47,785 nt of DNA from Methanobacteriota archaeon (GTDB taxonomy: Archaea > Thermoplasmatota > Poseidoniia > Poseidoniales > Thalassarchaeaceae), in assembly GCA_011523055.1 (NCBI GenBank), contig WTHQ01000005.1, forward strand, positions 1-47,785. The letters are read 5' to 3'. Position numbers and translations under genes: made by a program. This document shows, piece by piece, positions 42,576 to 47,186 of this stretch (position 1 is the stretch's first letter; each line of letters opens with the position of its first letter). The notes beneath the pieces are model-generated. The model ran no database searches. It worked only from the letters and a program-made list of their open reading frames with translations, and was not told the origin of the DNA.

Positions 42576-43427
42576 ATGAAATCAACTTGGCTAAGAGAGG
42601 CAACGATCTCCATAGGCATGGTGATCATAATACTGTCCGGCTTATGGGCCCTGACAGGCTCATGGCCCCCCCTTGTTGTCGTCGAGAGCAATTCAATGAT
42701 CCACTCTGAGGAAGGAGAAGTAGGCTCGATAGACGCTGGGGATCTAGTCCTGGTCAACTCCCCTCAGAGAACCGAGCATATTGTGACCTACGTGGAGTCA
42801 ATGCAGGAAGGGAACCAATACTATGGCTATGAGAGCCATGGGATGCCTGGGGACGTTATCATCTACCAGAAAAATGGTGGGAGCGACACCCCAGTCATTC
42901 ACAGAGCACTACTGAAAGCCGTAAGGAATGAGACAGGGGGATGGGATGTTCCAGGGACCAATGTGAGGGGGGTCGAGGAGATTTCTCTGACCCTGGATTA
43001 TAGGTGCTATCCACACGGGGGCAGCCTCAGGATTGACAGGTGGGCCCCGAACCATGAGGGCTACCTTACCACGGGGGATAATGAAAGGTCCAATGGCTGT
43101 AGGATAGACCAGCTAAGGGCCACAGACAAGAACGCCTCAGACCAATACATCAGGAGCCAGGGACTCAAGGACCAGGATGGGAACCCTGTCCTAGCAGTGA
43201 AGGAAGATTGGGTTTTGGGAGTAGCCTCCACGGAAATACCATGGTTGGGATCAATAAAATTGCTGACTACGGGGGCATGGCCCGCTGTTCCCAACTCGTC
43301 ATGGACCAAGTTGAGTATTCTAGTAGGCGCCATTCTGGTCGCCCCAGTGATCTTCGATGCTTTTAGGGGAAGGTCAGAAGAACCTCGGAAGCAAGATGGG
43401 GACAAGGACAAGGGCGAGGACGAGTAG
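42576..43427 (+). CDS. Signal peptidase I (archaeal/SEC11 type)
   Basis: A 283-residue membrane peptidase that removes signal peptides. One N-terminal TM (about 10-28) precedes the catalytic Ser in VVVESNSMIHS (S40, before Met). The general base is His rather than Lys (TPVIHRALL), and an acidic motif lies in GYLTTGDNERSNG, as in archaeal and ER enzymes. A large extracytoplasmic insertion makes it longer than average archaeal SPase. It has a C-terminal TM (SILVGAILVAPVIF) and a charged tail. I start at ATG 42576, just after the previous stop. Its last 54 bases overlap the opposite-strand protease gene. Confidence 0.9.
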   Translation: MKSTWLREATISIGMVIIILSGLWALTGSWPPLVVVESNSMIHSEEGEVGSIDAGDLVLVNSPQRTEHIVTYVESMQEGNQYYGYESHGMPGDVIIYQKNGGSDTPVIHRALLKAVRNETGGWDVPGTNVRGVEEISLTLDYRCYPHGGSLRIDRWAPNHEGYLTTGDNERSNGCRIDQLRATDKNASDQYIRSQGLKDQDGNPVLAVKEDWVLGVASTEIPWLGSIKLLTTGAWPAVPNSSWTKLSILVGAILVAPVIFDAFRGRSEEPRKQDGDKDKGEDE

Positions 43428-44873
43428 GGAACTGTACCCGCTTATCTGATCCGCGAGCCTTTCGATTTTCAGGGGATTCATTCTTGGGAACAAGGACTTG
43501 GCCATGATGTGTCCTGCGTTCCTGACCATGTGGCCCCCGTCGAATGGTATCAATGGAATCAGATTTGCGACTCCTAGGAGGAAGCTGATCCACATTACCC
43601 AGAACAAGAAATCGAACAAGCCGAACATGACATCCGCCCCCAGTAGCATGGGCAGGATTCCGTTACCTGCCTCCAGGAAGGCCCTTTCCTCGAGTACCAT
43701 GGTCTGCCCCTGGTTCTGGATCGGCACACCACTGAAGACCAGGGGCGAGATGGCTGTTGCGATGAGCCGCTCGCCAAAGGTCAAACCCTCCGAGAAAGGA
43801 AGGGCATAGGCGCTGGCCGCAGAGTCTGCTGACTTGATTCCACTAACTCCGAGAAACGCGTCACCCTCCTTAATCCCAGCCGCATCGACATTCGACTCAC
43901 ACTGAGCATTCCCATCACACAATTGATAGTAGTAATCCTTCTTGTCAGTCAGGACAACCTCGACCTCCCTGGTTACAACATCGCCGTGTATGGGGTTGGA
44001 GCTAACCTGCATGGCGATCATCTCCCCGGAACCGTACTCCGCAAGGGCATTCGTGAGGTCTTCGCCGCTTTTGATGGACACTCCATCAATCTCTGAAATC
44101 AACTCATATGGGAGGAGCCCAGCTTCGTCTGCCCCTGATCCCTGGACTATCCCTACGGCATACACACCGTCTTGTTTCGCAGTAAGTCCAGTTGATACAA
44201 ATGCAAGAAGAATGACCACGAGATATGTCATGACGATGTTGACTGATGGGCCCGCTGCGAACATCCTCAATCGATCTCTCTGCGGGGCTATCCTCATCTC
44301 CTCCTGGTCCGGCTCATAGAATGCACCTACCGGTATGATTCCAGCCACAAGTACGCCGAAAGATCGAATCCTCATCCCATGCGCCCTCGCCATCAAGCCG
44401 TGTCCGTACTCATGAACCACCACCGCTACAATCAGTGCGAGAATAGGCCAGAAAATTGGAACGAAACTAGTTACGCCGGGGATGAACAGAATGTCAGTTG
44501 CAGGTAGTACCTGTTGTTGGGCGGGTTCCATTGCAGTGCTGAGAGCGCTGGCTACTATCCCAAGGGAAAGGAAGAGCATGACAGCAAAACACAGCCATAT
44601 CGAAAACTCACCGAAAATCCTCCAAAGCCGCCTGGGACGAGCGATATATTCTGCCACCTTCTTTCCTTTGCTGGTCCTGATCATCAGTATGATTCCCAGA
44701 ACCCTGCTACAGTTCCACTCATCGAGATATCCCTCTCGATCCAGGAAGAGGATCGTGATGTACCACACGATTAACGATGTTCCTAGTAGGGGGCTTAGGA
44801 AGCCATTGAAGGTCAGTATGGCTATTCCAGCAACCACGATGATCTGATTGAGGCCAGAAGAACCCTCCTCCAT
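43374..44873 (-). CDS. Site-2-type intramembrane zinc protease (M50)
   Basis: A 499-residue M50 metalloprotease. The zinc motif HEYGH is in AVVVHEYGHGLMARAHGMRI; the second metal-binding segment is NLIPLIPFDGGHMV near residue 447. Between them lie PDZ-like parts (GSGADEAGLLPYELISEIDG and ...AGIKEGDAFLGVSGI). About six hydrophobic helices. It would cut transmembrane anchors, for example of anti-sigma-like or envelope-stress proteins; its substrates are unknown. The 3' end overlaps the convergent signal peptidase gene. Confidence 0.92.
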   Translation of the reverse strand: MEEGSSGLNQIIVVAGIAILTFNGFLSPLLGTSLIVWYITILFLDREGYLDEWNCSRVLGIILMIRTSKGKKVAEYIARPRRLWRIFGEFSIWLCFAVMLFLSLGIVASALSTAMEPAQQQVLPATDILFIPGVTSFVPIFWPILALIVAVVVHEYGHGLMARAHGMRIRSFGVLVAGIIPVGAFYEPDQEEMRIAPQRDRLRMFAAGPSVNIVMTYLVVILLAFVSTGLTAKQDGVYAVGIVQGSGADEAGLLPYELISEIDGVSIKSGEDLTNALAEYGSGEMIAMQVSSNPIHGDVVTREVEVVLTDKKDYYYQLCDGNAQCESNVDAAGIKEGDAFLGVSGIKSADSAASAYALPFSEGLTFGERLIATAISPLVFSGVPIQNQGQTMVLEERAFLEAGNGILPMLLGADVMFGLFDFLFWVMWISFLLGVANLIPLIPFDGGHMVRNAGHIMAKSLFPRMNPLKIERLADQISGYSSLLVLALVLVPILLPRFF

Positions 44874-44952
44874 GTTGCCATCTAGATGGGCCTCTGATTC
44901 AAATGTCTCTATTCCGAGAAGTACAAAAATTCAACACCACGTGGATTTTACA

Positions 44953-45117
44953 ATGGCTGCGAATGGGTCGGTAGATAGTAGGACTATTTGCAAGGTAAGG
45001 AAGGAACATGAGGCGATCAAAGCACGCTTGGATCGGATTGATCTCGACATCCCGAGAAGAGAGATAGAGGTCGTCAGACAAATATTAGACCTCATCGATG
45101 ACGAGCTCAAGGGCTAG
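44953..45117 (+). CDS. Small predicted protein, 54 residues
   Basis: A short ORF from ATG 44953: MAANGSVDSRTICKV followed by a charged helical region rich in Arg, Glu and Asp (RKEHEAIKARLDRIDLDIPR), which may form a coiled coil. No family recognised. The upstream part of the same open frame (from 44848) overlaps the protease start and is not used. The stop lies within the Hjc 3' end (overlap of 11 bases). Codon use looks ordinary, but the length makes it uncertain. Confidence 0.45.
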   Translation: MAANGSVDSRTICKVRKEHEAIKARLDRIDLDIPRREIEVVRQILDLIDDELKG

Positions 45118-45652
45118 ATTCCAACGATGCCCTTGAACCGTCAGATCTGCATATCATGGCAATGAACCTGTGCAATGGCATCCCATGATCCCAATCCAAG
45201 TGAGGGGCGCCATTTCTGGTGAGAGGGAGATTTGGGACTCTGTTGGCAATCAACCGCATTTTACCACTGAGGCCATGTACGGGAACAGACAGGATCCTCC
45301 AACTATCCCCCCTGACCCCCTTCAGTCTGAATGCATACAGCGGCAACAGGCCACAACGCTCCCCCGTCTGCTTGAAGGCGTCGTATTGTGTCATTGTTCG
45401 CCCCGAGAGGTATATCTTACTGGTCTTTGATGATTTTACCTCTATGGGGAAACAAACATCCCCCCTAAGCACCAGTAAATCTCCTGTGCCCTCTGATCCG
45501 CTGCCAGGTGCTCTGACAACCAGAAATGGACGTTTGCAGACCTGCATGGCTCGGGCCCTCTCGACCTCATTGCAAGACCTCGTTATCGCTATCACCCCCT
45601 TCCTTTCCCCGGCAAGCACGGAGCGCAATTCACGCTCATAGGGTCCGCTCAT
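45107..45652 (-). CDS. hjc: Archaeal Holliday junction resolvase (Hjc)
   Basis: A 181-residue nuclease that cuts four-way DNA junctions. It has the Hjc layout: YERELRSVLAG (helix 1, Glu), FLVVRAPGSGSEGTGDLLVL (Arg, Ser and the catalytic Asp) and CFPIEVKSSKTSKIYLS (Glu-Val-Lys). Compared with ordinary Hjc (about 130-150 residues), roughly 22 residues are inserted between helix 1 and FLVVRAPG, and the C-terminus is longer. I start at ATG 45652 (MSGPYEREL), the normal beginning. It is transcribed away from the RuvC-like gene. Confidence 0.92.
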   Translation of the reverse strand: MSGPYERELRSVLAGERKGVIAITRSCNEVERARAMQVCKRPFLVVRAPGSGSEGTGDLLVLRGDVCFPIEVKSSKTSKIYLSGRTMTQYDAFKQTGERCGLLPLYAFRLKGVRGDSWRILSVPVHGLSGKMRLIANRVPNLPLTRNGAPHLDWDHGMPLHRFIAMICRSDGSRASLESSP

Positions 45653-45711
45653 GTTCCAACACCCTGTCGGGTAGGCTAATGACGACACCGGTCTCGTAAA
45701 CTAGAAAATTG

Positions 45712-45730
45712 CGATTTTGATCCAAAATCG
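45712..45730. promoter_or_regulatory. Perfect inverted repeat between divergent hjc and RuvC-like genes
   Basis: CGATTTTG-ATC-CAAAATCG is a perfect 8-bp inverted repeat with a 3-bp centre, AT-rich in the arms. It lies 60 bases from each start codon in the only sizable divergent gap of this region, so a shared operator or a regulator/resolvase binding site is possible. No second copy was noticed elsewhere in the window. Confidence 0.45.
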
Positions 45731-45789
45731 ACATTGCGACGACTCAAACAGTAGTAAGACTTGAACACCGTCAGTTCAGTTGACCATCA

Positions 45790-46548
45790 ATGGACAGAGC
45801 GGGCGTCAGGACTGACGACTATCAACTCGCATACAGATTAATCCAAGCATTGCGAACTTCGGGCATCAGGCCTGTTCAATTCAGTCCATGCGATATAGTA
45901 CCAGCATCTATGCCCGTTTGGTTCGGAAGCCCATCCGAAGTAGAATCCTGGGGGGATCCTCGAGGAGTCGGCTGTACGATAGATACTCTTGACGCCGCGA
46001 TAACTTCTGCTTTCGCGGGAGAAGGTCGTGTGATCAATCACGTAATCTTTGGAGTGGACCCAGGTCCTAGGCCGGGACTGGCTTGGATAACTAAGAATCG
46101 AATGCTGGGTTCCTTGCAGCTTGAGTCAGTTGATGAAACAATCAACACGATCGACTCGATTCTCGAAAGTCTGAATCCAAATTGCCACACCATTCGAATA
46201 GGGGACGGAGCCAGAACCATCTCCCGCAGACTCGTCAACGTTTGTCTGGCTAGAGGTCATAACGTCGAGATCGTGGATGAGAGACGAACGTCTATGGGTT
46301 CACGACACAATCACGCCGCCTCTGCAGTTAGAATAGCACAAAAGAAGGGAATAAGGACGTCCGAAAAAATGCAATTGAACCCTTCCGAGGGTGAGATCAA
46401 AGAGATCCAAAGGAGATCAAGATCCACATCTGGGGGAAGGGTCACTATACCCAAGTCTCTGGCAAAGGCGGTCGCAGTAGGGCGCATGGACATCAATGAA
46501 GCAGTACAGAGGCACGCGACGATTAGTGAATTTAATCACATAGGCTAG
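45790..46548 (+). CDS. RNase H-fold (RuvC/YqgF-like) nuclease-like protein
   Basis: A 252-residue protein with three parts: N-terminal alpha/beta region (1-80), a central RNase H-like domain, and a C-terminal basic helical segment with SGGRVTIPKSLAKAV. The centre has HVIFGVDPGPRPGLAWI (D90 on strand 1), RIGDGARTISRRLVN (D139), VEIVDERRTS (E164) and SRHNHAASAVRIA (H173 or H175 in place of the usual last acid), like RuvC and YqgF. I recall similar conserved archaeal proteins without a named function. Predicted: DNA or RNA junction or structure-specific nuclease. It lies divergently beside Hjc. Confidence 0.75.
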   Translation: MDRAGVRTDDYQLAYRLIQALRTSGIRPVQFSPCDIVPASMPVWFGSPSEVESWGDPRGVGCTIDTLDAAITSAFAGEGRVINHVIFGVDPGPRPGLAWITKNRMLGSLQLESVDETINTIDSILESLNPNCHTIRIGDGARTISRRLVNVCLARGHNVEIVDERRTSMGSRHNHAASAVRIAQKKGIRTSEKMQLNPSEGEIKEIQRRSRSTSGGRVTIPKSLAKAVAVGRMDINEAVQRHATISEFNHIG

Positions 46549-47186
46549 TCAATCAACCCTCGTCGGTACTCCCTCGTCCGGTCAACACCTGGAAACCTAT
46601 CCTCTGATTCTCTGTAAACCGTCTTCATATTGTTTACGAAGTTAGCCTCCTGGGTGATTATCTTCACTTTCTTCACTCCGGGATCAACACCACTGTCCAT
46701 CCATGCCAAGACGATCTCCATGGTCATCCTCGCACCTTCTCTGTGTGGGTAGGCAAAGACATCCATGCTCAAAGGTGGTAGCACGACAGTCTCCCTGTCG
46801 TCTATCTCACCAATCTTTTCGAAGAGAGAGGCGTATGCAGCCTTCAGCAACTCTCTCCGGTCATTATCCTGTGTTGGTCGACGGCAATCGGGTCCAACAA
46901 CATGGATCAGACTGCTGTGCGGCAAAGAAAACGTGGGTGTGATTACGGCCTCGCCGACTCCGCAGGGCGGGAGATTCTCTTTCCTCCTCTCGACAGCTAT
47001 TCCATGAGTGTGCTCTCGAAGCTCTGGACCTGCAGCCTGATGTACGACCTCATCCACCCCTTCTCTCCCTGCAAGTCGATTATTTGCTGGAGTGACCAGG
47101 ATATCTCCCTCTTCCTTCGTGAGGTCTCCGTACATAAACCGGACCTGGCCAAATTGACATTCCCTCACAATGATCGTCTCAGCCAC
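46545..47186 (-). CDS. Macro-domain (ADP-ribose-binding) protein
   Basis: A 213-residue protein. The macro-fold signature is present: YGDLTKEEGDILVTPANNRL, the glycine loop AGREGVDEVVHQAAGPEL, and LIHVVGPDC near the middle. Most such proteins bind ADP-ribose or remove it from proteins or nucleic acids. The final 30 residues form a charged helical extension. It is convergent with the RuvC-like gene (4-base overlap) and divergent from the RAM-domain gene. Confidence 0.85.
   Translation of the reverse strand: MAETIIVRECQFGQVRFMYGDLTKEEGDILVTPANNRLAGREGVDEVVHQAAGPELREHTHGIAVERRKENLPPCGVGEAVITPTFSLPHSSLIHVVGPDCRRPTQDNDRRELLKAAYASLFEKIGEIDDRETVVLPPLSMDVFAYPHREGARMTMEIVLAWMDSGVDPGVKKVKIITQEANFVNNMKTVYRESEDRFPGVDRTREYRRGLID

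Follow-up and report, generated by a model that had tools for sequence, protein, structure and literature searches.

A RuvX-like RNase H-fold protein widespread in Thermoplasmatota and encoded head to head with the Holliday junction resolvase Hjc in Poseidoniales

Introduction

The gene for Hjc, the archaeal Holliday junction resolvase, lies in a 1.45 Mb genome of the Thalassarchaeaceae (marine group II) next to a divergent gene whose 252 amino acid product exceeds the cut-off of no Pfam or NCBIfam family and has no significant match in a sequence search of the PDB. A preliminary description, made from the DNA sequence alone, regarded this product as a RuvC/YqgF-like nuclease and offered three roles for it: a second archaeal resolvase, a regulator of Hjc or an rRNA-processing enzyme. 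What is this protein, here called RuvX-like, and does its place beside hjc reflect a part in recombination? The stretch of DNA analyzed (the window) is the whole contig WTHQ01000005.1, 47,785 bp in length.

The divergent gene pair and its intergenic gap

The hjc gene (bp 45,107–45,652, minus strand; 181 amino acids) is the only copy in the genome. Its product matches PF01870 (E 3.7e-11, 43.3 bits against a cut-off of 21.1), although its 35 bits against the stricter NCBIfam equivalog NF040854 fall under that model's 70-bit cut-off, and the catalytic residues D64, E77 and K79 (numbered as in the first row of alignment A4) are invariant in 27 Thermoplasmatota Hjc proteins; the original identification of this gene is thus sound. 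Its start had been placed at the GTG at bp 45,688, up to which the frame is open, but conservation ends at the ATG at bp 45,652 (M13 of that frame) in all 11 congeneric species compared. The GTG is therefore probably 12 codons too early and the ATG the likely start, so that hjc occupies bp 45,107–45,652 and the intergenic gap bp 45,653–45,789. An insertion of about 22 residues in Hjc, suggested earlier to be a contact site, does exist, as it is found in 26 of 27 Hjc sequences across Thermoplasmatota. A contact with the RuvX-like partner is rejected, however, because the insertion is phylum-wide and is present even in the Hjc of family f17, where the RuvX-like gene is missing. One other Thalassarchaeaceae hjc (L024:484–1115) is broken over three frames, through pseudogene formation or assembly errors, and its RuvX-like neighbor is intact.

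The RuvX-like gene (bp 45,790–46,548, plus strand) is a real gene with relatives 61–77% identical throughout the genus, and relatives are present in 77 of 98 genomes. The head-to-head arrangement of the two genes around one gap, as first described, was confirmed, the starts being 137 bp apart. An M50 metalloprotease gene with a PDZ domain (bp 43,374–44,873, minus strand; PF02163, E 1e-31) adjoins hjc on its other side, and a macro-domain gene (bp 46,545–47,186, minus strand; PF01661, E 8e-23) is convergent with the RuvX-like gene. An 89-codon open reading frame for a coiled-coil-like protein (bp 44,848–45,117) overlaps the 3′-end of hjc with its own 3′-end, and a similar small frame occupies the same place in the related locus L061.

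Comparison of the gap among the 11 species (the window and relatives L003–L012) shows two conserved blocks in an otherwise diverged region. The 19 nt block GGCTAATGACGACACCGGT (bp 45,674–45,692, plus strand), some 22 bp upstream of the Hjc start, is identical in all 11, and the 18 nt block AGTAAGACTTGAACACCG (bp 45,753–45,770, plus strand), about 20 bp before the RuvX-like start, is nearly so. The two share a GA..ACACCG core and a distance of about 20 bp from their respective starts, and they are possible operator or promoter elements. A perfect palindrome between them, GATTTTGATCCAAAATC (bp 45,713–45,729), was considered as an operator and rejected; it is absent from the relatives, and 0.23 such sequences with no more than two mismatches are expected per window.

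Predicted fold and active site

AlphaFold2 modeled the full RuvX-like protein with a mean pLDDT of 87 and its RNase H core alone with a pLDDT of 90 and a pTM of 0.86. The model contains the N-terminal alpha/beta domain (amino acids 1–77) and the RNase H core (84–190) that the preliminary description had proposed, and a helical C-terminal part (200–250) in which S210-R211 is invariant in Poseidoniales. The core has strands at residues 84–90, 96–101, 104–110, 132–138 and 159–162, helices after 104–110 and after 132–138, and a last helix at 175–184; as modeled, the order of these elements is that of RNase H. Foldseek searches with the core gave as top match the Thermus thermophilus RuvC–Holliday junction complex 6s16 (E 8.7e-5, TM 0.61), followed by RuvC 4ep5, the IS621 RuvC-like domain and RuvX 7ess, the last at ranks 4 and 6 (TM 0.62 and 0.59), with the chloroplast resolvase MOC1 and a canarypox resolvase at lower ranks. 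The full-length model placed the IS621/ISCro4 recombinases on top, with poor overall TM. The expected likeness to both RuvC and YqgF was thus found (6s16, 4ep5 and 7ess).

Only part of the active site first proposed (D90, D139, E164 and H173/H175) is retained when the family is compared. All 49 diverse members compared have D90 and E164, and position 175 is Asp in 24, His in 15 (as in the window protein) and Asn in 10, with no other residue, so the third acid position is acidic in about half of them. D139 is not conserved and is His in many relatives, the flanking G138 and G140 being conserved, and H173 is not conserved either. In RuvX and Tex, the acid at strand 4 has moved to strand 5 (Majorek et al., PMC3985635). 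Because D139 of strand 4 is unconserved and E164, in a VDERRTS motif, follows strand 5, the predicted acid layout D90, E164, D/H/N175 is that of RuvX and Tex and not that of RuvC. Families f27 and f24 have Asn175, and their members could accordingly be weak catalysts. The existence of the protein family and its fold class, the latter as modeled, are well supported.

Relationship to known families

The archaeal DUF460 family (PF04312, COG2433), which is RNase H-like and related to Tex and to resolvases, is the best Pfam match. It was found for 26 of the 49 diverse members, always weakly (best E 5e-5), and other families matched no more than two members each; in the single members inspected, DUF460 matches reached about 20 bits at best against a gathering cut-off of 28 and mostly covered the first strands only. 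Run against 194 Thermoplasmatota genomes, the DUF460 model yielded three matches, all weak and below its cut-off, at least two of which (G115 and G350) coincide with the RuvX-like gene; the positive controls Haloferax, Sulfolobus and Methanosarcina were all detected. COG2433 has been described as mainly missing from Thermoplasmata (PMC1852104). Such weak matches suggest that the RuvX-like family is a diverged counterpart or sister of DUF460.

RuvX/YqgF (PF03652) has a similar fold, and the window family agrees with it in the location of the acids, the first being on strand 1, the second behind strand 5 (DERxTS) and the third on the last helix. It differs in that the window protein, at 252 amino acids, is not of single-domain size and has extra N- and C-terminal domains, and in that the family carries a RuvC-type GIDPG motif and H, N or D at the last acid position. 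No significant match to PF03652 was found among the 49 members (one had E 0.021), and the DERxTS motif aligns with HDERLST of Escherichia coli YqgF at low probability. RuvC (PF02075), for which no Pfam or NCBIfam match of the RuvX-like protein is over cut-off, has the same RNase H fold as the model and a GxDPG first strand (GIDPG in the window family), but it lacks the extra domains, and its acid at the end of strand 4 (E66 in E. coli) has no conserved equivalent in the window family, whose acid lies after strand 5. The IS110-family recombinases IS621 and ISCro4, whose RuvC-like domain gives the top full-length matches, differ in that the window gene is single-copy and vertically inherited, has a stable neighborhood and shows no second recombinase domain in the model. 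A viral or phage origin was considered and rejected, as no relatives were found among viral contigs or phage records.

Distribution and independent losses

A family profile search found the RuvX-like gene in 235 of 293 genomes sampled across Thermoplasmatota (119 of 137 genera), usually in one copy per genome. It is also present in family f3, which lies within the class of the window genome but outside its order and is probably marine group III. One haloarchaeal relative was found by tblastn, WP_006067699.1 of Natronorubrum bangense (29% identity over 97%, E 8e-19). The gene has been cleanly lost in four genera of the window's own family (f1) and is missing from nearly all genomes of f17, including single-contig ones; nearly all of these genomes retain Hjc.

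Dependence between the two genes was examined in 159 genomes with a completeness of at least 90% and contamination of no more than 5%, the absences being confirmed by sensitive family profiles. Hjc is present in 138 of them and the RuvX-like gene in 124, and the latter occurs in 16 of the 21 genomes without Hjc (76%) and in 108 of the 138 with it (78%), so there is no association. Mutual replacement of the two, promising when viewed family by family, was consequently rejected. Five genomes at least 90% complete (G116, G117, G422, G436 and G495) have neither gene. The RuvX-like gene is not essential, because it has been lost in nearly all of f17 and in the four f1 genera and is absent with hjc from these five genomes. 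Since the two genes are lost independently, neither protein needs the other, and the idea of an obligate regulator of Hjc fails on this ground and on the phylum-wide presence of the Hjc insertion.

Gene order in and beyond Poseidoniales

Both genes were located in 59 Poseidoniales genomes, and in 56 of these, drawn from the two families of the order, they stand head to head no more than 400 bp apart; the exceptions are a broken assembly (G076), a 1.2-kb insert (G086) and a local rearrangement (G091). The surroundings are less constant. In the second Poseidoniales family the M50 gene is inverted and the macro gene has moved off or was not found nearby, and in the four genera without the RuvX-like gene hjc directly adjoins the macro gene, with about 30–95 bp between them. 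The expectation that the pair would be neighbors in other genomes therefore holds for Poseidoniales but not for the rest of Thermoplasmatota, where Hjc lies within about 5 kb of the RuvX-like gene at one of 60 loci (L238, at 3.7 kb).

A different recombination gene recurs outside the order. In N. bangense the RuvX-like gene and radB stand directly head to head. In families f4, f9 and f21 the divergent partner is a two-gene unit, X-radB, whose gene X lies between the RuvX-like gene and radB and encodes a protein of about 430–650 amino acids without a Pfam or NCBIfam match (L185:5983–7635, L194:3600–4883, L242, L280 and L292). Family f23 has it head to head with a gene for a RadB-like protein that is under the NCBIfam cut-off, which RadB exceeds in the other three of the four families. 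By a rough estimate, divergent radB placement within 2 kb should arise by chance in about 0.1% of genomes, or about 0.15 times in some 150 genomes, as against the four cases seen. RadB, which mediates recombination (PMC5480776), has been reported as an interaction partner of Hjc (PMC3950489). Searches of Poseidoniales genomes gave a single RecA-family match per genome, which is RadA-like in strength and falls short of the RadB cut-off; the order thus appears to lack RadB, and hjc occupies radB's place there. A second haloarchaeal plasmid radB, that of Salinibaculum KK48, has replication factor C genes around it and no annotated RuvX-like member beside it. Haloferax HVO_2382, beside radB (HVO_2383), is not claimed as an ortholog, its mention coming solely from a methods section.

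In most Thermoplasmatota the RuvX-like gene adjoins neither hjc nor radB. Five sampled genera of f27, which we infer to be Thermoplasmatales, have an rpsO-recJ(DHH) pair upstream of it; rpsO is convergent with it in families f5, f29 and f40, cdc48 lies near it in three families, and purH, dnaK-dnaJ-MFS or traB in others. A membrane-type protein of about 1,300 amino acids is encoded downstream on the opposite strand at L197, L199, L223 and the f27 loci L228–L238, in most f27 loci with a small partner.

Possible functions

The gene order in independent lineages points to a role in recombination, and we favor, at a probability of roughly 0.5, a RuvX-type, recombination-linked DNA nuclease that is accessory or alternative to Hjc. 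Such a protein would be a nuclease with an RNase H fold and a requirement for divalent metal, belonging to the RuvX/YqgF-Tex-DUF460 branch, with D90, E164 and H175 as the putative catalytic residues. Its substrate would be branched or single-stranded DNA, rather than RNA, arising in homologous recombination, and it would share a pathway with RadB and Hjc, either assisting there or serving as an alternative nuclease for junctions or flaps. The divergent pair may be under shared control through the conserved gap blocks. The second archaeal resolvase suggested in the preliminary description is possible and gains support from the repeated radB neighborhood. A bolder version, which we regard as rather doubtful, holds that the protein is a second Holliday junction resolvase of RuvX type, ancestral at least to Thermoplasmatota and also haloarchaeal, that cooperates with RadB and Hjc and serves as principal resolvase where Hjc has been lost.

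The protein might instead be a YqgF/RuvX-like RNA nuclease of rRNA maturation or RNA decay, its recombination neighbors reflecting shared regulation or mixed operons. This is a tentative alternative with some appeal: the acid layout is of RuvX type, DERxTS resembles the YqgF motif at low probability, the fold relative DrYqgF cuts RNA as an exo/endonuclease and shows no resolvase activity (PMC9601230), and rpsO, which encodes S15, adjoins the gene (with recJ) in f27 and is convergent with it in three other families. The recurrence of hjc and radB in independent lineages with the same divergent geometry speaks against it, however, as does the joining of the f27 rpsO to recJ, and a core function in rRNA processing is hard to reconcile with the loss in f17. 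A regulator or scaffold of recombination proteins such as Hjc and RadB, with an RNase H-like fold and little or no catalysis, seems unlikely. The non-acidic His or Asn at position 175 of many members, the three-domain build and the conserved C-terminal S-R element would suit it, but D90 and E164 are absolutely conserved, residue 175 is never other than D, H or N, and Hjc and the RuvX-like protein are lost independently. T. thermophilus RuvC, moreover, functions with His at the corresponding position. In favor of a scaffold role, one review found nuclease activity not yet demonstrated for Tex or YqgF at the time (PMC3985635).

That the hjc neighborhood is merely inherited gene order, with the protein having another, unrelated nucleic-acid function, is quite improbable. 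The hjc pairing is indeed limited to one order, with hjc elsewhere outside Poseidoniales, but the pair persists in 56 of 59 genomes though its neighbors on both sides are rearranged, the gap blocks are conserved, and the same geometry recurs with radB. We give even less credence to a direct substitution, in which two redundant Holliday junction resolvases each cover the loss of the other; the retention of the RuvX-like gene by 16 of 21 high-quality genomes without Hjc, and of Hjc by nearly all f17 genomes and f1 genera without the RuvX-like gene, would accord with it, but the nearly equal frequencies (76% and 78%) and the five genomes with neither do not.

The RuvX-like protein is a candidate overlooked recombination nuclease, because it is widespread in the phylum and repeatedly encoded beside recombination genes, its activity being predicted. 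It amounts to a nuclease-like protein present in most of an archaeal phylum, for which the libraries searched contain no curated family model. It may be the Thermoplasmatota counterpart of DUF460, reported missing from Thermoplasmata. Since a haloarchaeal member exists, the family should be accessible to genetics.
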